Shown: piece after piece, positions 14,753 through 34,254 of the stretch | Position numbering within the stretch: position 1 is the first letter of the stretch | Layout of the letters: every line of letters starts with the position of its first letter | Assembly: GCA_022425945.1 (NCBI GenBank) | Contig: JAKMEK010000003.1 | Span: 1-34,931 of the forward strand | DNA from: Flavobacteriaceae bacterium | Lineage (GTDB): Bacteria; Bacteroidota; Bacteroidia; Flavobacteriales; Flavobacteriaceae | Length of the DNA: 34,931 nt | Direction: 5' to 3' | Notes under the pieces: generated by a model | Databases searched by the model: none | The model's input: only the letters and a program-made list of their open reading frames with translations | What the model was told of the DNA's origin: nothing | Translations under genes and position numbers: made by a program

Positions 14753-15223
14753 ATGTACTGGATCAACCTACACGACCTTGAAAAAGAAATCGTGGAAAAA
14801 TGATATACCTATCGGCAAGCTTTTGCATACTTTCTAGGTACAGCCATCTTCTACACCCTCACAGATTTTTTACTAATTGAAGAGTACAGTTTTCGTCTAA
14901 AACTCTTGGTAATTCCAGTCTTGTGCATTGCCATTATTGGATTGTTATCTTCATTTAAATTTTACATCAGCCATGGTAGGACGGCCTTTTTCAAGGATTA
15001 TTTGGCCTTGAGTTGGGTGACAGGTTGGCGTGTTAGCTTAATGGTTTTTTCTGTATTTCTAATGATGTTTTTTCTTGGTTTCAGCCACAACTTAGCTGCT
15101 TTCACACCAAAAACAGAGCCCTATTGGACTATTCTTATCTTGGGTTATGAAACACTTTTTTACCTCCTTTTGTACCGCTCCTTCAAAAGAATAGCGCAAG
15201 GGAAACATTATAAAATGAATTAG
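14753..15223 (+). pseudogene. Four-helix membrane protein with in-frame TGA
   Basis: One frame runs from an ATG at 14753 to the TAG at 15221, interrupted only by a TGA at 14801-14803. The part before it (MYWINLHDLEKEIVEK) and the part after it (YTYRQAFAYFLGTAIFYTLT...) join smoothly into a 156-codon membrane protein with four helices and a soluble, charged N-terminus. After the TGA there is no ATG until residue 97; only a TTG at 14906, inside the second helix, would give a shorter product. I therefore read this as a gene broken by a nonsense substitution, or a base-call error. The next gene begins two bases after its stop, so it heads a small operon. Family not recognised. Confidence 0.55.
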
Positions 15224-15224
15224 A

Positions 15225-15746
15225 ATGAAAAAGAAAAAATTATTACTACGTATTTCGCTACTAGCACTCATTTTCACCCTCGGGTTTTTATGGTCAAAAT
15301 ATTATCACCAAAATTTAAAAAAGGAAAAATATCCCTACCGAATCGGTTACATTTACAATTACACCGAACTGGATAGCTTAGATAAACATGCCAAAAAATC
15401 ATTAAAGGGTTATTACAGTAGTGCTGCTCCAGACATCTATAAAGGCAGTAAGCATCAATTTAGAGAAAAAATACTCCATGACTTTCAATCTCAAAAATAC
15501 AATGACAATGGGTATCTCAATCTTCGCTTTTACATCAGTCATACAGGAAAGGTTTTCCTCTATGAGGCCAAAGAAATGAATTTTGAATTTGAACCACTAA
15601 CATTTTCAGATGGGCTTGTAGAAGAATTGATTGATTTGAGTCTTAAGAAGGATAACTGGCATGCCTATTCTGATGAGGACCTCAATTATTATATGCACCT
15701 AACTTACCGAATCGAAAATGGAAAAATTACTGAAATTATCCCTTAG
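15225..15746 (+). CDS. Membrane-anchored protein, TonB-C-like pattern
   Basis: A 173-residue protein with a basic N-terminus and one membrane helix (about residues 7-24), so the rest is probably periplasmic. The C-terminal half has the layout YLNLRFYISHTGKVFLYEAKEM ... LVEELIDLSLKKDNW ... HLTYRIENGKITEIIP. It resembles the beta-alpha-beta pattern of small TonB C-terminal-like domains, where a strand with a Gly turn is followed by a helix and a final strand ending in I-P. This is a pattern match only. It starts two bases after the upstream membrane-protein frame and overlaps the TPR lipoprotein start by 29 bases, so the three form one operon. Function unknown. Confidence 0.65.
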   Translation: MKKKKLLLRISLLALIFTLGFLWSKYYHQNLKKEKYPYRIGYIYNYTELDSLDKHAKKSLKGYYSSAAPDIYKGSKHQFREKILHDFQSQKYNDNGYLNLRFYISHTGKVFLYEAKEMNFEFEPLTFSDGLVEELIDLSLKKDNWHAYSDEDLNYYMHLTYRIENGKITEIIP

Positions 15747-16582
15747 CCTTGTTTTAATTTGTTGCATTAGCTGTGACATAGAATATCTCTCAAAAGAGGA
15801 ACGCATTAAACGCGCTGACTTTAAATGGCAAGAATTTGGATGCACATGGCTACCGTCAAGGGTCTCCTGCAAACATGAAAGCAATTGAAGAGATACTAAC
15901 ACTTAATCCGAATCATTGCGATGCAATTCGAGAACTGTCTATTCCCTATTTGAAAAGGGGCATGCCCGAAGAATGGAAAAGCATCTATGATAGAGCAGAA
16001 GAATGCGATGCGGCTCGCTGGCGGCCTTGGCGAGGTTATTTAAACCTCTTTTTCTACAGAGACTACGAGAAAGCCATTGCTGATTTTAATGCTAGTGATT
16101 CGCTTACCCCCAATCATATCGATTCCCCTCAAGGACATAGTGTAGATTATTGGAGAGGACATGCATATTTAGGGGCAGGAAAATATGAGAAAGCTATTTC
16201 TTACTATCAAAAACATATAGCCCATGTAACCGCTGAATGGGGTGAAGATTGGGTGGAACCTGACGCTTTTCTCAATCTTGCCATTGCTTACTATGAGAGT
16301 AAAGTTTTTGACAAAGTGAGCCAAAATCTTGATAAAGCTCTTGGAGCTTACCAAGACAAAAGTGCCGATAGCAAATATTATTATGCCCTACTTAAACAAG
16401 AAAAAGGTCAGCATGACAAAGCATTGGTTTGGATAGACGCAGCAATAGAAGATTTCCTTTCTGGCAACTACAAGAGAAGGTCCTACAACGAAGAAATAAA
16501 ACAGGTTTATTTAGCGCAATTAATTGAATTAGAAACAGAGTTAAAAAAACCCCGCCAAAAGGCAGGGTTGGTAAATCATTAA
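15718..16582 (+). pseudogene. TPR lipoprotein, frameshifted near codon 40
   Basis: The start (ATG at 15718) encodes a clear lipoprotein signal: MEKLLKLSLSLVLICCISC, with the lipidated Cys at residue 19. This frame runs to about 15835, then meets a stop after unrelated codons. The other frame carries on from 15836 with a tetratricopeptide protein of about 248 residues; visible repeat units include DYEKAIADFNASDSL, KYEKAISYYQKHIAHV and QHDKALVWIDAAIEDF. Removing one T from GAATTTGG (15834-15839) joins the halves into FKWQE-LDAHGYRQG and a protein of about 287 residues. The open part has no good start of its own (a TTG only). Either the gene is broken or the base is an error. Likely role: envelope scaffold in its small operon. 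Confidence 0.65.
16543..16569 (-). terminator. Intrinsic terminator of the DUF2911 gene
   Basis: On the minus strand AACCCTGCC - TTTT - GGCGGGGTT pairs fully (with one U-G wobble) and continues into a run of seven T. On the plus strand the same position is a C-A mismatch and no T run follows, so the signal acts on minus-strand transcripts. It lies 23 bases past the DUF2911 stop and inside the 3' end of the TPR gene. Confidence 0.75.
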
Positions 16583-16592
16583 GGGAAATAAA

Positions 16593-17429
16593 TTATTTAC
16601 TCCATTCAGCAATAGCCGCCTTGTTCATACGAACATAGTCAGGGTTCCCCGCTTTTTCTGCTAAGGCTAAGGACTGCTTTGCAGAAACAATTGCACCAGC
16701 TGTATCGTTTAAACCAGCAAGAATTAGGGATTGCTGACGAAAATACCAGTAAGCATCACCTTTTCCTTCAATGGCTTTAGCGATCCATCCTTTTGCTTTT
16801 TCCAAGTCTTGCCCTTCTTGTAAGTAGTATACTGCAGCGCTGTAGTAATCGCGGTGCTTTGGCTCTTTGCTCAAAGCTTCGTTAATTGATGCTGTTGCCT
16901 TGGCAACTGTAGGTACACCAAAAGGCAAAGCCACACGAGTGGTGTCCCAACCCAAATTAAGGGTAGCGCCGTTATTGTGTAAATCAGAAATCCAAATTGA
17001 AAACGATTCAATGGATTCAGCCTTCAATGCAGCCGTTTCAACAGTTGCAGCAACCTTAGCTGCATCCCAATCAGCTGGAGTACCCCAATTGTCGGTTGCA
17101 GTATAGAAAAACACTTCCCATTGCTGCTCACCTGGACGTGTAAAAATAGCATAACTACCGGCAGCCAATTCTTGATCACCAAAAGTAACGGCATCACTGA
17201 AGCTAATCACGGTGTTTTTGTTGGCTCCTGTTCGCCATACTTCTCCATAAGGGACCAATGCACCCATAATGTCTCTTCCACGCTTTGCTGGGCGGGAGAA
17301 CTCAACACTTACTTCAGTTAAGCCTACCGTTTGATTGAGTTTAGCAGCTGGACTTGGTTGTGGGGTTTGAACTTGTGCCATTGCCACAGTAGAACAACTG
17401 AGCGCTAGCAAGTAGATTAATTTTTTCAT
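16593..17429 (-). CDS. DUF2911 protein with TPR-like tail
   Basis: A 278-residue exported protein. The signal peptide is MKKLIYLLALSCSTVAMAQ. The DUF2911 domain occupies roughly residues 25-165, with SPAAKLNQTVGLTEVSVEFSRP, KRGRDIMGALVPYGEVWRTGAN and YAIFTRPGEQQWEVFF, all typical of the family. The remainder is helical with tetratricopeptide-like pairs (AAVYYLQEGQDLEKAKGWIAKA). I chose the ATG at 17429 because it starts the signal peptide and follows a near-perfect promoter; the longer frame adds 21 unlikely residues. The family is widespread in Bacteroidota and has no established biochemical role. It is monocistronic, with its own promoter and terminator. Confidence 0.9.
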   Translation of the reverse strand: MKKLIYLLALSCSTVAMAQVQTPQPSPAAKLNQTVGLTEVSVEFSRPAKRGRDIMGALVPYGEVWRTGANKNTVISFSDAVTFGDQELAAGSYAIFTRPGEQQWEVFFYTATDNWGTPADWDAAKVAATVETAALKAESIESFSIWISDLHNNGATLNLGWDTTRVALPFGVPTVAKATASINEALSKEPKHRDYYSAAVYYLQEGQDLEKAKGWIAKAIEGKGDAYWYFRQQSLILAGLNDTAGAIVSAKQSLALAEKAGNPDYVRMNKAAIAEWSK

Positions 17430-17450
17430 TGTTTGTGTTTTAAAATTACC

Positions 17451-17481
17451 CAAATGTAGAAAATGTTTCCTTATCCACAAA
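17451..17481 (-). promoter_or_regulatory. Consensus promoter of the DUF2911 gene
   Basis: On the minus strand TTTG (17481-17478), a 19-base spacer and TACATTTG (17458-17451) match the Bacteroidota -33/-7 consensus exactly. The -7 box ends 21 bases before the ATG at 17429. It is the cleanest promoter in the window. Confidence 0.75.
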
Positions 17482-17556
17482 CCCTCAATCAATTAGCCAT
17501 TAAATAAATATTTAAATATTATTGTTTAACTATTAGATTAAATCGTTAAACATTTT

Positions 17557-17564
17557 TATCTTTA
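17557..17564 (+). promoter_or_regulatory. Candidate -7 box of the photolyase operon
   Basis: TATCTTTA differs from TAnnTTTG at the last base and lies 16 bases before the first ATG of the operon. The upstream 100 bases are very AT-rich with no clear TTTG at -33, which would allow an alternative sigma factor or activator. No operator-like palindrome is evident. Confidence 0.4.
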
Positions 17565-17580
17565 ACAAAAAATAAGAAGA

Positions 17581-18045
17581 ATGGTCTACCGATTAAAAAC
17601 GGTTCAAAAATTACCCATCACGGTTGAAAAAGCTTGGGATTTTTTAACAGATCCTGGCAACCTAAAAAACATTACTCCTGACTACATGGGGTTCAAAATT
17701 TTAGAAGGTGCAGACGAGAAAATGTACGCTGGACAAATCATTAAATATACCGTAACCCCGGTATTGGGATTACCCCTTGGATGGGTAACGGAAATCACTC
17801 ATGTGAAAGACAACAAATACTTTGTCGATGAGCAGCGCTTTGGCCCCTATAGTTTATGGCATCATAAACATTTTATAAAGGCCATTCCAGGAGGAGTAGA
17901 AATGATCGATATCGTCGATTATAAATTACCCTTAGGAATTTTGGGGCGAATTGCTCACACCCTATTTGTAAAGAGACAATTAAATCAAATTTTTAACTAT
18001 AGATACAACAAGCTGATCGAGTTGTTCGGCGATTATCGGGATTAA
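17581..18045 (+). CDS. SRPBCC-family protein heading photolyase operon
   Basis: A 154-residue soluble protein of the SRPBCC (START/Bet v1-like) fold. It begins with the family strand YRLKTVQKLPITVEKAWDF and continues with LTDPGNLKNITPDYMGFKI. The helix-grip pattern then follows, with YTVTPVLGLPLGWVTEITHV and a C-terminal helix (LFVKRQLNQIFNYRYNKLIELF). Such proteins bind hydrophobic ligands or cofactors. It is the first gene of a plus-strand operon whose later members are photolyases, and the SDR gene follows after 6 bases. The same SRPBCC-next-to-photolyase arrangement is known in other marine bacteria, where its role is not settled. Ligand unknown. Confidence 0.8.
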   Translation: MVYRLKTVQKLPITVEKAWDFLTDPGNLKNITPDYMGFKILEGADEKMYAGQIIKYTVTPVLGLPLGWVTEITHVKDNKYFVDEQRFGPYSLWHHKHFIKAIPGGVEMIDIVDYKLPLGILGRIAHTLFVKRQLNQIFNYRYNKLIELFGDYRD

Positions 18046-18051
18046 GTAGCT

Positions 18052-18750
18052 ATGAAAAAGAATATTTTAATCATTGGTGGTTCTAGTGGAATAGGCCGAG
18101 CCTTGGTGGATATACTCGCACCTTCGCACAACATTTATGTAGCCTCAAGAAGCAGTGAATCACTCGACAACACAGTTGTCACACACATAAACTTCGATGC
18201 ATTAAGTGATGCATTGGATGTGAGTGCCTTACCCGAACAACTTGATGGCTTTGTTTATTGCCCGGGTTCAATCAATTTGCGTCCATTTAGAGGGCTAAAA
18301 CCAGAAACGTTCCAACAGGACTTTGAAATCAATCTAGTAGGAGCCGTAAAGAGTCTTCAGGCCGTTTTGCCTTTCTTACAGAAAAGCCCAGCAGCGAGTC
18401 TGGTATTCTTTAGTACTGTTGCAGTTCAAACCGGAATGCCTTTCCATGCCTCAGTAGCTGCATCCAAAGGAGCTATTGAAGGTTTGACCCGTTCTTTAGC
18501 TGCAGAATATGCACCGAAATTCAGGGTGAATTGTATTGCTCCCTCATTGACACAAACCCCATTAGCGGATAAGTTTTTAAACAATGAAGCTAAGCTAGAG
18601 AAAGCACAAGCACGCCACCCGCTTCAGCAGGTAGGTAGCGCGAAAAATGTAGCCCAAATGGCCGCTTTCCTTTTGGGAGAGGAAGGCCAATGGATGACAG
18701 GACAAATCCTGCATGTAGATGGAGGTATTGGTGATCTAAAAACAAATTAA
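18052..18750 (+). CDS. SDR-type protein lacking the catalytic Tyr
   Basis: A 232-residue short-chain dehydrogenase/reductase fold. The cofactor motif GGSSGIGR is at residues 9-16, with NxxG-like FVYCPGSINL and a conserved INLVGAV. The catalytic Ser is likely Ser121 (FFSTVA). The usual Tyr-x-x-x-Lys is here Val135-x-x-x-Lys139 (HASVAASK), so the general acid is missing. This substitution is seen in a subfamily often placed beside photolyase genes. Reduced or altered redox chemistry is therefore expected. The C-terminus ends with the normal QWMTGQILHVDGG. It is six bases after the SRPBCC gene and one base before the photolyase start, strongly suggesting a shared message. Confidence 0.85.
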   Translation: MKKNILIIGGSSGIGRALVDILAPSHNIYVASRSSESLDNTVVTHINFDALSDALDVSALPEQLDGFVYCPGSINLRPFRGLKPETFQQDFEINLVGAVKSLQAVLPFLQKSPAASLVFFSTVAVQTGMPFHASVAASKGAIEGLTRSLAAEYAPKFRVNCIAPSLTQTPLADKFLNNEAKLEKAQARHPLQQVGSAKNVAQMAAFLLGEEGQWMTGQILHVDGGIGDLKTN

Positions 18751-18751
18751 G

Positions 18752-20050
18752 GTGGAAAAATACACTGTATTCTGGTTCAGAAGGGATTTACGCATTGACG
18801 ACAATGCTGGTCTTTATGCCGCTTTAAAAGGAGCGCATAAGGTCCTTCCCATCTTTATTTTTGATACAGCAATTATACACAAGCTTCCTCAACAGGATGC
18901 GCGAATAGAAATGATTCATACGGCCTTAGGAAAAATATCTGATGCTATGAAGGAGAACAGATGTACAGTAGGAATGTATCTGGGAAAACCAAAGGCCGTT
19001 TTTGAATCACTATTAAAACACTACCCAATTGCCAAAGTAATCACCAACCATGATTATGAGCCCTATGCACAAGAACGCGACGACAAAATAGCCGCTTTAT
19101 TGGCAGCCAATGGCATTGAATTTGAAACCTACAAAGACCAAGTCATTTTTGAAAAAAGCGAGGTTGTCAAAGATGACGGAACAGCTTACAAAGTGTATAC
19201 TCCTTATTCACGTAAATGGTTAAAGCGTTTTGAACAGGAGGGCATAACGCACTTTCCTTCAGAAAATGAACTGCATAATTTGGCGGAGATCACACAACCA
19301 AATCTTTCAATTAATGAGCTTGGATTTACCCCTTCGGGCATCGATTATCCTAGCTACCAGTTCAACAAAAAAATAATTCAGGAATACGAAGAGACGCGTA
19401 ATTTCCCTGCTGTAGATCAAACCTCACGTACGGGAGCACACCTCCGCTTTGGTACACTAAGTGTTCGAAAAATGGTAGCTAAAGCCGCGAAAGAAGAGAA
19501 CAATATTTTTTTAAAGGAATTGATTTGGCGTGAATTTTTTATGCAGATACTATGGCATTTTCCCCATACACCAACCAAGTGTTTTAAGCCAAAGTATGAA
19601 CGCATTGAATGGCGCAATAACGAAGAAGAATTTAAGCAGTGGTGCGAAGGTAAAACAGGCTACCCTTTTGTAGATGCAGGGATGCGCGAACTAAACGCCA
19701 CTGGATTCATGCATAATCGCGTTCGCATGTTGGTAGGAAGCTTTTTGTGTAAGCACCTCTTGATCGACTGGCGATGGGGTGAAGCTTATTTTGCCGAAAA
19801 ATTATTGGACTATGAGATGTCGAGTAATGTTGGGAATTGGCAATGGGTTGCTGGCTGTGGCGTTGATGCAGCACCTTACTTTCGAATTTTCAACCCCATT
19901 GATCAGATCAAAAAATTTGACAAACAACACCAATACATTCAAAAATGGGTACCCGACTACCAAGAGTTTAGTTACCCTCAACCAATGGTTGATCACAAAT
20001 TTGCAAGAGAACGCTGTTTAACCACATACAAAGCCGCTCTGAATGGCTAA
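18752..20050 (+). CDS. phrB: Deoxyribodipyrimidine photolyase, class I-like
   Basis: A 432-residue flavoprotein predicted to split cyclobutane pyrimidine dimers with blue light. The N-terminal Rossmann (antenna) domain starts [13 protein letters not shown]. The FAD domain has the full class I set: ELIWREFF (Glu256, Trp259), [25 protein letters not shown] (Asn322, Arg323) and [11 protein letters not shown]-terminal segment [21 protein letters not shown] also matches (Asn359, Trp363, Trp365, corresponding to E. coli Asn378, Trp382, Trp384). Trp297, Trp340 and Trp363 fit the electron-transfer triad. The start is a GTG, one base after the SDR stop, and the tail overlaps the DUF2256 start by 8 bases. 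It is the most canonical repair enzyme of the operon. Confidence 0.93.
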
Positions 20051-20201
20051 AAGAGTTTTAAAGGCAAACCTACCGCAGAAGGTTTGTCTACGATGTAATC
20101 GTCCTTTTAGCTGGAGAAAGAAGTGGGAAAAAGACTGGGAAGAAGTTAAATATTGTAGTAAAAGATGCAGAAACGAAAAGGAAAAGCCCTTGTTTGGCTA
20201 A
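20043..20201 (+). CDS. DUF2256 zinc-finger-like protein (52 aa)
   Basis: A very short gene hidden between two photolyase genes. The product ([10 protein letters not shown] start, FG end) has [18 protein letters not shown], then VKYCSKRC: a Cys15-x2-Cys18 pair and a Cys38-x3-Cys42 pair with a Trp- and Lys-rich linker. This is the DUF2256 pattern, a probable zinc-binding treble-clef-like module. It overlaps the photolyase stop by 8 bases and the Cry-DASH start by 37 bases, so it must be translated in tight coupling. DUF2256 is repeatedly found beside or fused to photolyase-type proteins but has no known function. Nucleic-acid binding or metal delivery to the FeS photolyase two genes away are possible. 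Confidence 0.85.
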
Positions 20202-21478
20202 GAAACGATTTACGTGCAACCGATCAGCAATCGCTTTACCAAGCTGCGACCAATCACGAAAAGGTCGTCGCTTATTATGCCTTTGATCCAGCTCATTTTA
20301 CAACCACTAAGTGGGGATTCAAAAAAACAGAAGCCTATCGTGCAAAATTCTTGATTGAAACGGTATTGGCACTTAAAGAAGAATTAGCAGCACACAATAT
20401 AACTTTAATCATTGAACAGCAATCTCCACACCTCGGAATTGCTCAATGGGGGAAAGAATTGAGCATCACGGACCTTTACTTTCAAAAAGAATGGACAAAA
20501 GAAGAACGAGAAGAAGAAGAAAAAGTTAGCGCCGGCCTATTTGCTCAAGTTAACGTGCATAGCTACTACGATCAGTTCCTTTTTCATCCCGACGATATTC
20601 CCATGAACCTTACTGATTTGCCTGAGGTGTTTACTGCTTTTCGAAAGAAATGTGAGAAATACAGCTCTGTTAGGTCATGCCTTCCTCCTCTTCCTGTAAT
20701 GGAAGCTGAAAATCAATTGGAAAAGGAATTCAATCTTCCAAGTCTTACACAACTAGGCTTGTCCCCTGCTGAAAAACACCCACATTCTGCCTTCCCTTTT
20801 GTAGGAGGTAGCAAAGCAGTTCAAGCACGTATTGATCATTATTTCTGGAAAACCGAAAAGCTTTCTTTCTATAAACAAACCCGCAATGGTTTACTTGGGC
20901 TTGATTATAGCGCCAAGCTCTCTGCTTGGTTAGCAAACGGATCCATATCGGCTAGAGAAATTTATTGGGAGGTCATGGATTATGAAAAACAAGTACAAAA
21001 AAATCAATCGACCTACTGGCTCGTTTTTGAACTTCTGTGGCGTGACTACTTCAAATTCATTTCTTTAAAACACCAAGACAAAATTTTTCTCATTGGAGGC
21101 ATTTTAGAGCGCGAATATGAATGGAAAAATAATCCGAAAATGTTGCAATCGTGGTGCGAAGGAAGCACAAAAGAGCCTTTTGTCAATGCCAACATGATAG
21201 AACTAAACAAAACAGGGTGGATGAGTAATCGAGGGCGACAAAATGTAGCGTCCTACTTTGCAAAAAATTTATTGATGGATTGGCGCATGGGAGCGGCATA
21301 TTTTGAATCCCTTCTAATTGACTATGACGTACACAGCAATTATGGGAATTGGCTCTATGTGGCTGGTGTTGGAAATGATCCGAGAGATCGAAAATTCAAT
21401 GTCCGCCTTCAAGCCGAACGCTATGACGAACAAGGGAAATTTCAACGTCGCTGGAACCAAAAAAGCTTATTCGAATGA
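20165..21478 (+). CDS. Cryptochrome DASH
   Basis: A 437-residue Cry-DASH flavoprotein. These repair dimers in single-stranded or looped DNA and may signal. Diagnostic segments are [40 protein letters not shown], and [13 protein letters not shown]. The DASH signature [20 protein letters not shown] (from residue 354) and [20 protein letters not shown] are also present. Compared with the CPD photolyase of the same operon it has SNRGR in place of MHNRVR, and Leu397 follows the Trp396 (WLYVAG), where most DASH proteins have WQYVAG. Antenna binding is plausible but not proven. The ATG overlaps DUF2256 by 37 bases; the stop overlaps the next ATG (ATGA at 21475). Confidence 0.92.
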
Positions 21479-23007
21479 AACTACGTTTAATTTTAGGTGA
21501 TCAACTCAATCTACACCATCCTTGGCTAGAAAAAGTCAATGCTGAGGTCCTTTATGTAGTAATGGAGATGCGTCAAGAAACCGACTATGCTCCCCATCAC
21601 ATTCAAAAAGTAGTTGCCTTCTTTGGAGCCATGAGAAGTTTTAATAAAGCGTTAAACAATCTTGGACACAAGACCCATTACCTAACTCTTGACGACCCCC
21701 AAAACACACAAGATCTGACAAAAAACCTTCAATGGTTGATCAATGAATACAGCATAGAAACCTTTGAATATCAAGCTCCCGATGAATACCGATTGGATCA
21801 GCAACTTAAGGACTTTTGTGCAAATTTATCCATTGCTACGACAATGGAAGATACCCATCATTTCATGACTACACGAGAAGATTTGGAGGCCTTCTTCTCA
21901 GGGAAAAAACAATTGATTCTAGAATTCTTTTATCGCAACATGCGCAAACAATTCAATCTGCTTATGGAAGCCGGTCAGCCCGAGGGAGGGCAATGGAATT
22001 TCGACAAGAACAATCGCAAAAAATGGAAAGGAGATCCGGGTATACCCGAGCCCTACCTTCCTCAAAAAGAATCCCTAATTGAATTAAAAAAACTATTGGA
22101 AGACCAGGGCGTTAAAACCATTGGTCATTTCGATGATATGACCTTCTATTACCCCCTCAATAGAACCGAAGCCCTTGCACAACTAGACTATTTTTGTAAA
22201 CATCTCTTGGTCCACTTTGGAGATTACCAAGACGCACTTCATACCGACCAAGTAAATCTGTTTCATTCACGCATCTCCTTTGCGCTCAATGTAAAAATGA
22301 TTTCCCCGCTAGAAGTGGTCGAAACCGTCATAAATTACTACCGTCAAAACGAGGGAGAAATTGAACTTTCACAGGTGGAAGGTTTTGTTCGTCAAATTAT
22401 TGGTTGGCGCGAATACATGCGGGGCATCTACTGGAAAGAAATGCCTGCCTATGCACAAAAGAACGCCCTTGACAATCACAATCCACTGCCCGACTTTTAC
22501 TGGACAGGGAACACAAAAATGAATTGTCTACATCAAAGCATTACCAATTCCTTGGATAATGCTTATGCACATCACATTCAACGCTTAATGATTACAGGGA
22601 ATTTTGCTTTACTGGCTCAGGTAGACCCAAGTGCAGTAGACGAATGGTATTTGGGCATTTATGCCGACGCTATTGAATGGGTGCAAATAACCAATACACG
22701 TGGAATGAGTCAATGGGCAGATGGGGGCATTGTAGCCACCAAACCCTATGTGTCTGCGGCGGCTTACATCCACAAAATGAGTAACTACTGCGATTCTTGT
22801 CAGTACGATAAAAAGAAAAGAATTGGAGAAGATGCCTGCCCTTTCAATAGTCTCTATTGGAATTTCTTGGATGATAAAAAACAATTCTTCGCAAAAAACA
22901 ATCGGATGGCCATGATGTTGCGTTTGTTGGAGAAAATCCCTCCGCACGACTTAGCCGAAATAAAAGCGAGAGCAGCTGCCATTTTAACGAATCCCGATGA
23001 CTATTAA
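21475..23007 (+). CDS. FeS-type (6-4) photolyase / CryB-like protein
   Basis: A 510-residue protein of the deoxyribodipyrimidine-photolyase-related (FeS-BCP) family, which repairs (6-4) photoproducts using FAD, a lumazine-type antenna and a [4Fe-4S] cluster. The N-terminus begins [17 protein letters not shown], typical of the family. Four cysteines fit the cluster: Cys351 (MNCLHQ), Cys439, Cys442 (YCDSCQY) and Cys455 (EDACPF). The spacing agrees with Agrobacterium PhrB (350, 438, 441, 454). His366-His367 (AYAHHIQRLMITGNF) match the catalytic His region. Trp391 and WADGGIVATKPYVS also fit. The start overlaps Cry-DASH by 4 bases and the stop overlaps the next gene by 11. The family assignment is firm; (6-4) activity is inferred from relatives. 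Confidence 0.92.
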   Translation: MKLRLILGDQLNLHHPWLEKVNAEVLYVVMEMRQETDYAPHHIQKVVAFFGAMRSFNKALNNLGHKTHYLTLDDPQNTQDLTKNLQWLINEYSIETFEYQAPDEYRLDQQLKDFCANLSIATTMEDTHHFMTTREDLEAFFSGKKQLILEFFYRNMRKQFNLLMEAGQPEGGQWNFDKNNRKKWKGDPGIPEPYLPQKESLIELKKLLEDQGVKTIGHFDDMTFYYPLNRTEALAQLDYFCKHLLVHFGDYQDALHTDQVNLFHSRISFALNVKMISPLEVVETVINYYRQNEGEIELSQVEGFVRQIIGWREYMRGIYWKEMPAYAQKNALDNHNPLPDFYWTGNTKMNCLHQSITNSLDNAYAHHIQRLMITGNFALLAQVDPSAVDEWYLGIYADAIEWVQITNTRGMSQWADGGIVATKPYVSAAAYIHKMSNYCDSCQYDKKKRIGEDACPFNSLYWNFLDDKKQFFAKNNRMAMMLRLLEKIPPHDLAEIKARAAAILTNPDDY

Positions 23008-24484
23008 ACAAGATGACATAGCCGTTGTTTGGTTAAAGCGCGATTTTCGTCTGCGGGATCACGCAGCCATGCACCAAGCCATCAAAAATCATCAGCAAAT
23101 TTTGCTCCTTTATGTATGCGAGAAAAGTTTGCGTGAAGAAGCCCATAGCAGCGAGCGTCACTTTGATTTTATCAAACAATCTATTGAAGATTTAAACCAA
23201 CAGCTAACTCCCTTCAATACACATATTTTGGCTGTAGAAGGTGAAGTGATTCCTGTACTCGAAGAGCTGCGCCATTTGATTCCCTTAAAGGGCATCTATT
23301 CCCACATAGAAACCGGAATTGGACTAACATTTCAACGGGACAAAGAGGTGTTCAAATGGTGTACACAGTACAACATTACTTGGAAAGAAGAACGCCAACA
23401 AGGGGTGTTTCGCGGAATGCAAAATAGAAAAAAATGGATCCAACAATGGTCGGCGCTAATGAACGAGGAACAACTTCCTTATCCAAATAAACAGGCATTC
23501 ATTACCAAGGACCAGTTAAATGATATTGCAAAAGAATTCACATTACTAAACTTAATAACTAGTCGGTCTCATTTGGTTCAACCTGGAGGAGAAAAGAATG
23601 CACATCGCTACATGGATTCCTTTTTTCAAGCACGTTACACCAATTATCAAAAACACATTTCTAAACCTGACTTAGCTCGAAAAAGTTGCAGTAGACTTTC
23701 TCCCTACCTAGCCTTTGGTAACCTCTCTATGCGACAGCTATTGCAGCGAACTGAGGCAGAAAAAGAACAAGGAAAAAGAAGTCAGGGCATTCGAGCATTT
23801 GAATCAAGACTGCGTTGGCAAGCTCATTTTATTCAAAAATTTGAGATGGAGTGTCGAATGGAATTCGAAAGCATCAATCGAGGTTATCATCGCCTAAAGA
23901 AAGAGGTGAACCCCGCCCACATCCAAGCATGGGAAAAAGGATTAACCGGTGTCCCAATGGTCGATGCAGCTATGCGATGTTTGGTCGCAACAGGCTATTT
24001 AAACTTTAGAATGCGCGCCCTTGTCGTCTCTTTTTTTGTACATCAACTGTGGCAGCCTTGGCAGGCATGTTCAGCCTTTTTAGCACAACAATTTCTGGAC
24101 TTTGAACCAGGGATACATTTTCCTCAGTTGCAAATGCAAGCAGGAGAAACAGGTATCAACACCTTACGCATATACAATCCGGTAAAAAATGGCTTAACCC
24201 ATGACCCTAATGGAGTCTTTACCAAAAAGTGGTTACCCGAATTGAATGAATTGCCCGACCAACTGGTGCATACTCCGTGGGATATTACCCCTTTTGAAGA
24301 AGAAATGTATGGCTTTAGGTTGGGTGAAAATTATCCCCATCCTGTGGTCGATATTGATCAAAGAAGAAAAGAAGCCTCAGATCTACTATGGAAAATGCAA
24401 AAAGACCCCTTAGTGTATCAAGAAAGCAAACGAATATTAAGTAGACATACCCTAGCTAGAAGAAAATCAAACCGATCCGCATGA
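22997..24484 (+). CDS. Divergent cryptochrome-like flavoprotein
   Basis: A 495-residue photolyase/cryptochrome homologue that departs from classical members at key places. The antenna-like domain begins VVWLKRDFRLRDH, and the FAD domain is recognisable at SRLSPYLAFGNLSMRQLLQR, RLRWQAHF and TGVPMVDAAMRCLVATGYLNFRMR. The photolyase His-Asn-Arg becomes Asn-Phe-Arg (336-338). In the segment ending TLRIYNP (389-395), the tryptophans equivalent to E. coli Trp382 and Trp384 are replaced (FPQLQMQAG). Canonical photoreduction and dimer binding are therefore doubtful. It starts inside the FeS photolyase gene (11-base overlap) and its stop overlaps the DUF2805 start. It may be a photoreceptor or use different chemistry; its role is unknown. 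Confidence 0.85.
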   Translation: MTIKQDDIAVVWLKRDFRLRDHAAMHQAIKNHQQILLLYVCEKSLREEAHSSERHFDFIKQSIEDLNQQLTPFNTHILAVEGEVIPVLEELRHLIPLKGIYSHIETGIGLTFQRDKEVFKWCTQYNITWKEERQQGVFRGMQNRKKWIQQWSALMNEEQLPYPNKQAFITKDQLNDIAKEFTLLNLITSRSHLVQPGGEKNAHRYMDSFFQARYTNYQKHISKPDLARKSCSRLSPYLAFGNLSMRQLLQRTEAEKEQGKRSQGIRAFESRLRWQAHFIQKFEMECRMEFESINRGYHRLKKEVNPAHIQAWEKGLTGVPMVDAAMRCLVATGYLNFRMRALVVSFFVHQLWQPWQACSAFLAQQFLDFEPGIHFPQLQMQAGETGINTLRIYNPVKNGLTHDPNGVFTKKWLPELNELPDQLVHTPWDITPFEEEMYGFRLGENYPHPVVDIDQRRKEASDLLWKMQKDPLVYQESKRILSRHTLARRKSNRSA

Positions 24485-24765
24485 AAAAAACTGTTGAATT
24501 AACACTAGTCCAAGTAGACCGTATTATAGAAATGGCCTGGGAAGACCGTACTCCCTTTGATGCTATACTTGATCAATTTGGATTAAAAGAACAAGATGTC
24601 ATTACCCTAATGCGACGTGAATTGAAACGTTCAAGCTTTAATCTTTGGAGAGCCAGGGTGCAGGGTAGGAAAACAAAACACCGTAAATCTCGAGGGGAAG
24701 ATGTAGACCGTTTTAGATGTTCTAGGCAGAGAGGAATTAGCAACAATAAGGTATCCAAACGATAA
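24481..24765 (+). CDS. DUF2805 (TIGR03643) protein, HTH-like
   Basis: A 94-residue basic protein of the DUF2805/TIGR03643 family. The family region is DRIIEMAWEDRTPFDAILDQ, FGLKEQDVITLMRREL and KRSSFNLWRARVQGRKTKHRK, all within the first 70 residues. The first 45 residues look like a helix-turn-helix: a helix, a turn at FGLKEQD and a recognition-like helix VITLMRREL. The rest is rich in Arg and Lys. That would suit nucleic-acid binding, which is my inference. The ATGA overlap with the preceding cryptochrome-like gene shows translational coupling. It ends the photolyase operon, since a promoter-like box and a DUF1801 gene follow. The family is known mainly from marine bacteria and cyanobacteria, with no function assigned. 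Confidence 0.82.
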   Translation: MKKTVELTLVQVDRIIEMAWEDRTPFDAILDQFGLKEQDVITLMRRELKRSSFNLWRARVQGRKTKHRKSRGEDVDRFRCSRQRGISNNKVSKR

Positions 24766-24771
24766 ATTTCG

Positions 24772-24779
24772 TATTTTAG
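24772..24779 (+). promoter_or_regulatory. Candidate -7 box of the DUF1801 gene
   Basis: TATTTTAG resembles TAnnTTTG (two changes) and lies 16 bases before the DUF1801 ATG, just after the photolyase operon stop. It suggests separate transcription, though read-through is not excluded since no terminator is visible. Confidence 0.35.
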
Positions 24780-24795
24780 GGAAAAGCCCTTGAGT

Positions 24796-25212
24796 ATGAA
24801 AAGGAATAAAACCCAAAAAACGGACGAGAGTATTGCGCTTTTTTTATCAGCTGTAGAGCATGAACAAAAAAGAAAGGATAGTTATGTACTGCTAGAATTA
24901 ATGCAGGAAATAACCAACACTAAACCTCATTTATGGGGGATAAGTATCATTGGTTTTGGTGAATATCACTACACCTATGCTAGTGGGAGAGAAGGCGATT
25001 GGTTTTTGTGTGGTTTTTCTCCACGTAAACAAGCATTATCAATTTATTTAATGTGTGACCTTGCCCACGATGAATTGGATTTCAATGGGCTAGGAAAACA
25101 TAAGATTGGGCGTGGTTGTTTGTACATTAAACGTTTAAGCGACATTGACCTCAGCGTACTAAAAAAACTGATTGTGGACTCGATAGAAATCATCAAAAAG
25201 AAATACAGTTAA
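24796..25212 (+). CDS. DUF1801 (YdhG-like) protein
   Basis: A 138-residue cytosolic protein of the DUF1801 family. The core reads PHLWGISIIGFGEYHYTYASGREGDWFLCGFSPRKQALSI, with the family's Trp-Gly / Gly-Phe-Gly and SGREGDW marks. The C-terminal half follows with LGKHKIGRGCLYIKRLSDID. The fold is of the YdhG/frataxin-like type, and function is unknown. The ATG at 24796 is used instead of the TTG two codons upstream. Its stop overlaps by four bases with the stop of the intact frame of the opposing CarboxypepD_reg-like gene (25209). It is on the same strand as the photolyase operon but appears not to be part of it. Confidence 0.85.
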   Translation: MKRNKTQKTDESIALFLSAVEHEQKRKDSYVLLELMQEITNTKPHLWGISIIGFGEYHYTYASGREGDWFLCGFSPRKQALSIYLMCDLAHDELDFNGLGKHKIGRGCLYIKRLSDIDLSVLKKLIVDSIEIIKKKYS

Positions 25213-25249
25213 TTCTCCTTTTGTAGTAGCTCTACGCCCATACCAATAC

Positions 25250-26035
25250 TCAACGCTTTTTGACGCACCCATTTGGATTGACTGGTACTTCTTGCATATA
25301 CAGATTCCCAAACACGCCGGCAGAAAACCACAGGTTTTCAATTCCCAAATCTTCTATCCATTCAATAGAAATAAAGAAATTGTCTTCTACATAAATGTCA
25401 TAGGGCGATAGATCAACGATAATGGTTTCAGATCCATTGGGCAAAGAAATATAAACAGCTTCAGCCAAAAGGTTATCCCCAGGAAAACCGTCAACCTCAT
25501 TGTACACATTGAACCGAAGAATCACATCTTGAATATTATTCTCTGCTATGGAGAGCCAAAATTTCTTAAGAAGCGTAGGACTATTTTTCTTGACACGTAT
25601 AAATTGTGCAATCTCGTTACCCAAATGGTTAGAGGTAAATCCACCGACTATACGTTTAGAAGTTGTTTTGTTCCCAACAGTCAGTGGCCGCCATTGAGTA
25701 TCTGTGACAATAACTTCTTTTAATGCAGTAACCTCCGGTTGTAACTTAAGGCTAAGAAGTTTTTCGACACCCTTCTCCAAATAAGCAATTTCTCTTTCGA
25801 CTTTAGCAAAACCAACCATGGAAAAAAGTAAGCTTTCGTTCAATAAATGATCGGGGATTTCAAGTTGGTAGTAACCTTCAGCATCGGTTACTGTACCCAC
25901 TCCTTTACCCGGAATACCAATATTTACATAGGGTAAGGGGGCATCATATTCAGCATCATGAATTTGACCAAAGACCAGTTGTTGTGCCTGAAGACTAAAG
26001 CTCGTAAGTAACAAACAGATAAGTGTAGGTTTCAT
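25250..26035 (-). CDS. CarboxypepD_reg-like exported protein, 3' frameshift
   Basis: A 261-residue exported protein as it stands. The signal peptide is MKPTLICLLLTSFSLQAQ. Residues 20-105 form a CarboxypepD_reg-like beta-sandwich (GQIHDAEYDAPLPYVNIGIP, GKGVGTVTDAEGYYQLEIP) as in many outer-membrane proteins of Bacteroidota. A second beta domain (residues about 130-250) follows. At the end the normal frame degenerates (GNLYMQEVPVNPNGCVKKR), whereas the adjacent frame continues with VWESVYARSTSQSKWVR and reaches a stop at 25209. One missing base in the A-run at 25310-25312 (TTT on this strand) explains this. The gene is 25 bases downstream of murA on the same strand. Function unknown; the ATG at 26035 is set by the signal peptide. 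Confidence 0.8.
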   Translation of the reverse strand: MKPTLICLLLTSFSLQAQQLVFGQIHDAEYDAPLPYVNIGIPGKGVGTVTDAEGYYQLEIPDHLLNESLLFSMVGFAKVEREIAYLEKGVEKLLSLKLQPEVTALKEVIVTDTQWRPLTVGNKTTSKRIVGGFTSNHLGNEIAQFIRVKKNSPTLLKKFWLSIAENNIQDVILRFNVYNEVDGFPGDNLLAEAVYISLPNGSETIIVDLSPYDIYVEDNFFISIEWIEDLGIENLWFSAGVFGNLYMQEVPVNPNGCVKKR

Positions 26036-26060
26036 GAAATAAACTTGGGAGGTTGTCTTT

Positions 26061-27368
26061 TTAGACACGTTGAATTTTAGCACCAATTTTTTGGAGACGT
26101 TCAACTATATATTCATAGCCTCGATCGATTTGCTCTATATTATGTATGGTACTAGTGCCGTTAGCAGAAAGGGCAGCAATCAACAAAGATATCCCTGCTC
26201 GAATATCCGGGGAGGTTAATGTGGCTGCTTTTAGCTGAGACTTGAAATCATGACCAATGATGGATGCTCTGTGTGGGTCACATAAAATAATTTTGGCGCC
26301 CATATCAATTAGCTTATCCACAAAGAACAAACGACTTTCGAACATTTTTTGATGAATGAGGACACTCCCTCTTGCTTGGGTAGCCACCACCAAAACAATA
26401 CTCAAAAGGTCGGGGGTAAAACCTGGCCAAGGAGCATCGGATACAGTTAAAATGGAACCGTCTATATAGTTTTGAATTTCATAACCTTCGGTATGGGCAG
26501 GAATATATATATCATCACCTTTTTGTTCAACCCTAAGTCCTAATTTTCGAAAAACAGATGGAATTTGTCCCAAAAACTCCCATTGAACATTTTTAATGGT
26601 CAATTCGCTTTTTGTCATGGCTGCAAGACCGATCCAACTTCCAATTTCAACCATGTCAGGAAGAACGCGATGACTTGTTCCACCCAAAGCATCTACACCT
26701 TCTATGGTTAACAGGTTAGATCCAACACCTTCTATCTTAGCTCCCATACGGATCAACATCGCACACAGTTGTTGCAGATAGGGCTCACATGCGGCATTGT
26801 AAATTGTTGTTTTACCTTTGGCTAATACTGCGGCCATAAGGATGTTTGCTGTGCCGGTAACAGAAGCTTCATCCAATAACATGTCCGTACCGATAAGTGA
26901 TTTCGCTTCAACAGAATAAAAATAATCTTCACGATTGTAATTAAACTCAGCGCCAAGTTTAATGAGTCCTTCAAAGTGTGTATCGAGTCTTCTTCGTCCA
27001 ATTTTATCTCCCCCGGGACGAGGAATACTTCCACGGCCAAAACGTCCTAAAAGCGGCCCGACCAACATAATGGAACCACGTAGTCCTCTTCCATCTATTT
27101 TGTATTGATCAGAATGTAAATAGTCAAGGTTAACTTCATCTGCTTTAAAGCGGTATTTACCAGGCCCTAATTGGGTGACCTTTACACCAAAATTAATGAG
27201 TAATTGAATGAGTTTATTTACATCAATAATGTCTGGAACGTTTTCGATGGTAATCTCCTCTGGAGTAAGTAAAACAGCACATAATATTTGTAATACTTCA
27301 TTTTTTGCTCCTTGTGGGGTTATTTCCCCTTTTAACTGGTGACCACCTTCAATTATAAATGTACCCAT
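26061..27368 (-). CDS. murA: UDP-GlcNAc 1-carboxyvinyltransferase MurA
   Basis: A 435-residue cytoplasmic enzyme that transfers enolpyruvate from PEP to UDP-GlcNAc, the first committed step of peptidoglycan synthesis. It has the two-domain inside-out alpha/beta pattern. Signature residues are AKNEVLQ (Lys22, Asn23) and the active-site loop GRGSIPRPGGDKIGRRRLD. The catalytic/fosfomycin-target Cys115 of E. coli is Asp121 here, as in mycobacterial and chlamydial MurA. A further conserved segment is SDAPWPGFTPDLLSIVLV. It starts 8 bases after the DUF4290 stop and is followed by the CarboxypepD_reg-like gene, so the three probably share a message. An Asp version usually remains active but is insensitive to fosfomycin; that is inference from relatives. 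Confidence 0.94.
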   Translation of the reverse strand: MGTFIIEGGHQLKGEITPQGAKNEVLQILCAVLLTPEEITIENVPDIIDVNKLIQLLINFGVKVTQLGPGKYRFKADEVNLDYLHSDQYKIDGRGLRGSIMLVGPLLGRFGRGSIPRPGGDKIGRRRLDTHFEGLIKLGAEFNYNREDYFYSVEAKSLIGTDMLLDEASVTGTANILMAAVLAKGKTTIYNAACEPYLQQLCAMLIRMGAKIEGVGSNLLTIEGVDALGGTSHRVLPDMVEIGSWIGLAAMTKSELTIKNVQWEFLGQIPSVFRKLGLRVEQKGDDIYIPAHTEGYEIQNYIDGSILTVSDAPWPGFTPDLLSIVLVVATQARGSVLIHQKMFESRLFFVDKLIDMGAKIILCDPHRASIIGHDFKSQLKAATLTSPDIRAGISLLIAALSANGTSTIHNIEQIDRGYEYIVERLQKIGAKIQRV

Positions 27369-34180: not shown

Positions 34181-34254
34181 GGCGAGGTAGCTCAGCTGGT
34201 TAGAGCGTCGGATTCATAACCCGGAGGTCGGGGGATCGTGCCCCCCTCTCGCTA
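34181..34254 (+). tRNA. tRNA-Met (anticodon CAT)
   Basis: A 74-nucleotide cloverleaf. The acceptor stem GGCGAGG pairs with TCTCGCT (G1-U72 and G7-U66 wobbles), the D arm is GCTC/GAGC, and the anticodon stem TCGGA/CCCGG encloses TTCATAA with anticodon CAT at 34215-34217. The T stem is GGGGG/CCCCC. The T-loop is ATCGTGC, not TTCRANY: A54 and T58 replace T54 and A58. A31 faces C39. No CCA is encoded. The C11-G24 pair and lack of three G-C pairs at 29-31 argue for elongator Met rather than initiator; tRNA-Ile2 with a modified CAT anticodon is also possible. Confidence 0.9.

Follow-up and report, generated by a model that had tools for sequence, protein, structure and literature searches.

In a window of 34,931 nucleotides from a Flavobacteriaceae bacterium (assembly GCA_022425945.1, contig JAKMEK010000003.1, forward strand; the window being the whole stretch analysed), eight genes form a run on the plus strand, at 17581-24765, and are preceded by a perfect inverted repeat that we call the operator (Table 1). 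Four of the genes encode members of the photolyase/cryptochrome superfamily, the most divergent of which is named CRYX here. According to the list of open reading frames and the sequence, neighbouring genes either overlap or are separated by no more than 6 bases, the junctions being, in gene order, gaps of 6 and 1 bases and overlaps of 8, 37, 4 (ATGA), 11 and 4 (ATGA) bases. A sequence-only reading of this DNA had described the same eight closely spaced genes, with five overlapping junctions of which two were ATGA, and the coordinates agree with both statements. A single message is predicted for the run. Scans for its ends were uninformative, with 9 terminator-like sites in 17400-26200 against a shuffled mean of 9.2, and 18 sigma-70 promoter matches against 20.7 in shuffles.

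Table 1. The eight-gene run, its operator and its flanking genes (positions in the window).
Feature	Position	Strand	Basis or remark
DUF2911 protein, divergent, far side of operator	16593-17429	-	Similar placing in several relatives
Operator, perfect inverted repeat TGTTTAA-N16-TTAAACA (TGTTTAAC-N14-GTTAAACA)	17523-17552	.	Before SRPBCC gene
TATCTTTA, TAnnTTTG-like element	17558-17565	+	Sequence; 5 bases past inverted repeat
SRPBCC-fold protein (Polyketide_cyc-like)	17581-18045	+	Pfam, E 2.7e-4, 21.7 bits against cut-off 23.4
Short-chain dehydrogenase/reductase (SDR)	18052-18750	+	Pfam PF13561, E 7.1e-39
Class I-type cyclobutane pyrimidine dimer (CPD) photolyase (PHR1), GTG start	18752-20050	+	Pfam, NCBIfam, residue alignment
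DUF2256 short protein, Cys15, 18, 38, 42	20043-20201	+	Pfam, E 2.2e-21
Cry-DASH	20165-21478	+	NCBIfam TIGR02765
FeS-BCP / CryPro type (6-4) photolyase	21475-23007	+	PF04244 and solved-structure match
CRYX, divergent photolyase/cryptochrome-superfamily protein, antenna and FAD (flavin adenine dinucleotide) domains, altered active site	22997-24484	+	
DUF2805 / TIGR03643 small basic protein	24481-24765	+	Pfam, NCBIfam
DUF1801-domain protein, alternative TTG start 24790	24796-25212	+	Pfam

The four photolyase/cryptochrome lineages named in the sequence-only reading could be told apart. In a tree of 102 rows, the class I, Cry-DASH and CRYX sequences formed one group each, with SH-aLRT (Shimodaira-Hasegawa-like approximate likelihood ratio test) values of 96, 100 and 100, although the method was a quick one and the program warned of long branches meeting (those of DASH and of SPLX, a type described below). 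FeS-BCP, which was not included in the tree, is separated from the other three by its family assignment. PHR1 has both the DNA_photolyase and the FAD_binding_7 domains of Pfam, and in the residue alignment it retains the catalytic Glu, the CPD Trp, Met and Trp, the Asn at flavin N5 and the Trp triad, position numbers and roles being those that we take to hold for the E. coli enzyme. We claim no subtype for PHR1, since it stays below the NCBIfam cut-offs of both TIGR03556 (330.1 against 884.6 bits) and NF007955 (323.1 against 506 bits). Cry-DASH passes that of TIGR02765 (493.3 against 317.05 bits). FeS-BCP matched a solved CryPro/(6-4) photolyase with an E-value of 3e-153, as well as PhrB enzymes, and its Cys351, 439, 442 and 455, located in the sequence without a structure alignment, have the spacing that we presume for the cluster cysteines of PhrB.

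CRYX belongs to the superfamily by PF00875 and PF03441, both above cut-off, and it lacks the photolyase catalytic residues and two of the three electron-chain tryptophans. When 20 CRYX proteins were compared with class I and DASH sequences, the position of the catalytic Glu was occupied by Arg, that of the CPD Trp by Met and that of the flavin N5 Asn by His in all 20, and that of the CPD Met by Ala in 17 and Ser in 3; the middle Trp of the triad was kept in 20/20, the distal one in 1/20 and the proximal one in 0/20. CRYX should bind FAD by its fold, but canonical repair is probably not its role; our guess would be a function that depends on light or redox state. It is quite possible, if short of an even chance, that CRYX instead carries out repair, on a different lesion or substrate. 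It keeps the FAD and antenna domains, Trp274, Arg340 and Asp368 are invariant in 20/20, and its gene came immediately after that of FeS-BCP 33 times in 80 related loci; the substitutions listed above, together with the loss of two triad tryptophans, argue against this possibility. These 80 loci are a non-random set, being those nearest to CRYX among the matches listed in a scan with the alignment of 20 CRYX proteins; 58 of them are at least 15 kb long, and all are Bacteroidota by record title except L160 (unclassified) and L174 (Halieaceae). Among the first 15 of 192 matches, relatives of CRYX with about 40-47% identity were also found on plasmid records of Vibrio, Salinivibrio and Pseudoalteromonas, and on the Salinivibrio plasmid the gene of the relative overlaps a DUF2256 gene.

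DUF2256 and DUF2805 were recognised with Pfam scores far above the cut-offs (76.1 against 25 bits and 123.1 against 22.5 bits, respectively). In DUF2805, 16 positions are invariant across 52 sequences, and the four cysteines of DUF2256 are invariant across 38 aligned ones (alignments A2 and A3 used 51 and 37 relatives, from the 60 listed for each). We propose that DUF2256, with its cysteines, and the basic DUF2805 are small accessory proteins, perhaps binding nucleic acids. No function was found for CRYX, DUF2256 or DUF2805 in the literature search; in an excerpt of one metagenome correlation study, DUF2805 is grouped with translation domains (PMC3597751). A further photolyase-related type without antenna, SPLX (about 370 amino acids), is present in 11 loci (L045, L053, L055, L057, L060, L064, L075, L077, L078, L081 and L088) and adjoins DUF2805 in 7 of them; SPLX of L075, the one scanned with Pfam, has FAD_binding_7 near its N-terminus and a C-terminus without assigned family. 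The genes TIGR03643, DUF2256 and a cryptochrome/photolyase are also adjacent on the Acinetobacter plasmid pYUSHP14-1 (L292), with TIGR03643 on the opposite strand and with genes for a lipocalin, a desaturase, a FAD oxidoreductase, DUF1365 and a cyclopropane synthase nearby, a similar light-stress setting in another phylum. The partnership thus crosses phyla.

The operator recurs with a strict spacing. In a free-spacing scan of the 80 related loci with gaps of 4-32 bases, the gap of 16 gave 54 matches where about 0.1 were expected from 20 first-order simulations, gaps of 10, 17 and 29 gave one match each and the rest none. The consensus of 55 sites, the window included, is TTTTGTTTAA...TTAAACA. 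In 38 of the 55, a TAnnTTT element starts 4-6 bases past the repeat; its counterpart in the window, TATCTTTA, resembles TAnnTTTG, which we take to be the consensus of the Bacteroidota -7 promoter element. The source genome has 5 sites (gap of 11-17 allowed) against 0 for a reversed control, and ten named relative genomes have 58 (gap of 16-17) against 3. The repeat is unnamed in the literature searched, the search being incomplete for Dokdonia, Polaribacter, LitR of Pseudomonas putida and the actinobacterial light response.

Of the five source-genome sites, one precedes the photolyase operon, one msrA-folE (L177, contig C39:28237) and the others the genes of a TonB receptor, a GLPGLI protein and a GapN-like aldehyde dehydrogenase. 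The msrA-folE site may place the repair of methionine sulfoxide and the pterin genes under the same control as the operon. In the ten relatives, taken together, operators lie before photolyase clusters and the genes for phytoene desaturase, proteorhodopsin, folE and msrA. We surveyed the flanks of 63 sites in 11 genomes (L245 was dropped as a duplicate of L198): by a loose test, 61 have on one side or the other an open frame of 60 amino acids or more whose start is no further than 150 bases away, and 73 of the 77 flanking proteins were scanned, four short ones being omitted. The families found among these 73 were fasciclin (10), TetR_C_23 (9), CrtI (4, by NCBIfam; a fifth, seen by eye beside the repeat in L216 of genome G198, is outside this count), rhodopsin (3), MnmA (3), and beta-carotene dioxygenase, FolE, MsrA, aldehyde dehydrogenase, LolD and DUF2911 (2 each). 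The rhodopsin sites are those of Kordia, Polaribacter and Marivirga; those of Kordia and Polaribacter separate rhodopsin from a divergent beta-carotene dioxygenase gene. MnmA, LolD and DUF2911, on the far side of divergent sites, need not be targets. By eye, the fasciclin-flanked sites are L188, L195, L196, L203, L207, L211, L218, L224, L235 and L239, and three Kordia sites (L192, L202, L229) precede secreted proteins, taken for the three Peptidase_S74 matches.

The best candidate for the regulator is a CarH homologue encoded elsewhere in the source genome. A single PF13411 (MerR_1) protein was found there, at 8005-8925 of L186 on contig C8, which is not the contig of the operon; the genome is 85.67% complete, so that a gene missing from it is no proof of absence. 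In Pfam the protein combines MerR_1 with B12-binding_2, its best matches in the PDB are CarH (3whp, 5c8d; E about 2e-8, residues 8-227), and its gene adjoins that of phytoene synthase (crtB) and a small gene read as crtZ by eye (no Pfam family). All 14 genomes tested encode a B12-binding_2 protein of 298-317 amino acids with the MerR motif, and 13 of the 14 proteins have W-x9-EH which, like ExHxxG, we take to be a CarH/LitR motif, both being visible in the matched CarH chain. In 9/9 genomes examined a repeat with 0-2 mismatches overlaps the start of the MerR gene or lies within 50 bases of it: it is perfect in L280, has one mismatch in L279 and L287 (the latter with a gap of 17) and two in L186 (the source), L282, L285, L286, L288 and L289. 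At a gap of 16 and up to two mismatches, 0.65 matches would be expected by chance in a 35 kb window, a figure calculated from the composition of the window although the relatives may be more AT-rich, and a few matches with two and three mismatches also occur away from MerR starts. Six of the 10 named genomes have a site no more than about 1 kb from the MerR gene; it precedes CrtI or, in the case of Marivirga, an extracytoplasmic function (ECF)-like factor.

We estimate at about 0.65 the probability that the run is a photorepair operon of Flavobacteriaceae belonging to a light regulon, with the MerR/CarH homologue reading the operator. That the operator recurs in relatives before carotenoid, proteorhodopsin and other light-linked genes suggests that they have a single light switch in common, probably a vitamin-B12 photosensor, and light control of the operon itself is predicted. 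By analogy with CarH, MerR carrying adenosyl-B12 would occupy the repeat and repress in darkness, and would release it in the light, inducing the operon. Three repair enzymes with complementary targets would then be produced, one for CPD in double-stranded DNA, one for CPD in single-stranded DNA and one for 6-4 products (specificities that we take from their known families), and CRYX, DUF2256 and DUF2805 would be induced along with them.

Several observations weigh against this reading. In the source MerR protein the Rossmann B12 domain PF02310 went undetected by Pfam, though CarH aligns over residues 8-227, and EIHELS replaces ExHxxG, the motif ending in S, with W-x9-EH present. No perfect site accompanies its gene, which has the two-mismatch repeat at its start and a half site before crtB. 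Three of the five sites in the source genome precede the aldehyde dehydrogenase, GLPGLI and TonB receptor genes; fasciclin, the commonest flanking family, has no obvious light link; and MnmA and LolD flank their sites divergently. Finally, 40 of the 80 related loci, many of which are incomplete, showed the gap-16 site, and 3 of 60 stretches from a sample of 198 genomes of the class had such a repeat. The repeat also lies about 30 bases before the start of a TetR_C_23 gene in 9 of the 10 named genomes, which brings in another possible reader.

That TetR_C_23 reads the repeat, with light or oxidative stress arriving by another route and MerR controlling carotenoids separately, seems unlikely to us but has to be taken seriously. 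TetR_C_23 heads the large photolyase cluster in Winogradskyella, Polaribacter, Algibacter and others, its gene has the repeat with one mismatch in genome G165, and it is present in 13 of 14 genomes tested, including the source genome (C59, at a contig end). On the other hand, the TetR gene of Marivirga (G207) showed no site, and the MerR start has the repeat with 0-2 mismatches in 9/9 genomes. Genome G134, listed as 100% complete, has no TetR_C_23 and nevertheless keeps a perfect repeat in the MerR-crtI interval; the cluster there extends to TspO, glutathione peroxidase (GPx), SRPBCC and PHR1 (named by eye, PHR1 also from the match list). We favour MerR because of this site, even if it comes from one genome.

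It appears somewhat less probable still that the operator responds to oxidative or singlet-oxygen stress rather than to light itself. MsrA, GPx (by eye), TspO and FolE are found in the clusters or at the sites, and the MerR-photolyase operon of Vibrio cholerae is linked to reactive oxygen species in an excerpt of PMC5241685, but the regulator candidate is homologous to CarH, and rhodopsin and carotenoid desaturase genes have the operator in common, both of which count against this reading.

The operon is not a one-off of this genome, a possibility that we rejected since it is shared by relatives. The exact eight-gene order was recovered in 6/80 related loci, five of them tight (L096, L098, L099, L136, L139) and L123 with one gap of 1.6 kb. 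Another order, DUF2256-DASH-FeS-CRYX-DUF2805-SDR-SRPBCC-PHR1, is found in 14/80, including Winogradskyella, Polaribacter, Algibacter, Psychroserpens and Hyunsoonleella. All four photolyase/cryptochrome lineages are present in 21/80, and the SRPBCC gene, whose assignment is weak (its Polyketide_cyc score is below the Pfam cut-off), often adjoins SDR and PHR1. Longer clusters in L118 (Hyunsoonleella) and L110 (Polaribacter) add TetR_C_23, an AarF-type kinase, a flavin reductase, an epimerase with DUF2867, GPx and TspO, and L118 also has folE (four L118 proteins were named by Pfam, the rest of the cluster by eye).

Among the 198 genomes, counted per genome, FAD_binding_7 is carried by 128, DUF2256 by 69, DUF2805 by 67 and FeS-BCP by 65, and every carrier of one of the last three has at least one FAD_binding_7 match. 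DUF2805 and DUF2256 occur jointly in 60 genomes, DUF2256 and FeS-BCP in 60 of the 69 with DUF2256, and DUF2805 and FeS-BCP in 56 of the 67 with DUF2805; within the 128 FAD_binding_7 genomes the odds ratios are 49.5, 72.0 and 29.4, respectively, in statistics that ignore kinship. In the 60 stretches from this sample, annotated with the window proteins, gene order varies and DUF2256 mostly adjoins a photolyase-family or DUF2805 gene. In G165, SRPBCC-SDR-PHR1-CRYX and DUF2256-DASH-FeS are 10 kb apart, with DUF2805 on that contig as well at a distance of about 60 kb, and in some other genomes, such as G004, parts of the set are on separate contigs. A functional tie is suggested because the parts co-occur without fixed linkage.

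The sequence-only reading had proposed a coordinated light-dependent repair or sensing module and gene-order comparison as a check. A coordinated light-dependent repair module is supported by content, conserved linkage, co-occurrence and an operator that carotenoid and rhodopsin genes of relatives also have, without being an oddity of this genome. The order is conserved in the six loci mentioned, but outside close kin it is in part not kept, and a lack of conserved order in relatives was one of the outcomes that this reading had named as refuting it. Its further suggestion, that the proteins form a single complex or act in fixed ratios, fits the five overlapping junctions and the tight same order in 5/80 loci but is very improbable, because order differs between families, subsets are split (G165, G004) and linkage varies widely while the genes still co-occur.

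Concerning the edges of the feature, its boundary should better be set at the operator, 17523. The DUF1801 gene is probably the ninth gene of the unit, since DUF1801 follows DUF2805 in L096, L098 and L099, and the DUF2911 gene may also be under the operator. A recently acquired island is unsupported: G+C is level at 0.376-0.423 across 15000-27000, and the flanking genes are alike in L096 (by eye). The sole Rfam match at gathering score in the window is a tRNA gene at 34181-34254.

A wider proposal stands, in our judgement, at even odds: that a light regulon built on one 30-base operator and a B12 photosensor of the CarH type exists in Flavobacteriaceae and in some further Bacteroidota, joining photorepair, carotenoids, proteorhodopsin, antioxidant and pterin genes, with CRYX as a new class of non-repair flavoprotein within it. 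With an operator of defined sequence, a leading regulator candidate and one rival, and a short list of targets, the way in which non-photosynthetic and proteorhodopsin-bearing Bacteroidota sense light becomes a testable question, and CRYX, DUF2256 and DUF2805 gain a regulatory setting.

The closest parallels are the CarH/LitR regulons of Thermus, Myxococcus, Bacillus and Pseudomonas (class II LitR), which likewise have a MerR-type regulator with a B12-type domain. As far as the excerpts of the papers cited here go, the LitR regulon of Pseudomonas includes a photolyase, a cryptochrome-like protein and FolE, with a nearby SDR gene (PMC9758184; a further parallel is in PMC11417400), and carotenoids are controlled by CarH/LitR (PMC6739363). 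The present system differs from these regulons by its Bacteroidota host, by the SRPBCC, DUF2256 and DUF2805 partners, by the inclusion of proteorhodopsin in some relatives and by its operator, TGTTTAA-N16-TTAAACA instead of the T(G/A)TACA/TGTACA of PplR1 (PMC9758184). Published support for light control comes from a related genus, cryptochrome and photolyase genes being stated as light-regulated in Dokdonia MED134 (PMC9040609). In Vibrio cholerae, a MerR-like gene and a photolyase form one predicted operon raised by blue light, which has a single photolyase, the two Cry-DASH genes being at distant locus numbers (PMC5241685). The timing is different in the actinobacterium Rhodoluna lacicola, whose photolyase transcripts drop during the light period (PMC8591293). 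In Nitrospira of the Great Lakes, FeS-BCP adjoins an uncharacterised photolyase-related protein, as FeS-BCP adjoins CRYX here, but by its description (a FAD domain and an unrecognised C-terminus) that protein fits the antenna-less SPLX better than CRYX (PMC9239080). Finally, the photolyase clusters of Polaribacter, Winogradskyella, Algibacter and Hyunsoonleella contain the same eight genes within about 10 kb but in another order, TetR, the AarF-type kinase and the flavin reductase lying upstream and GPx, TspO and, in some of them, folE being interspersed.

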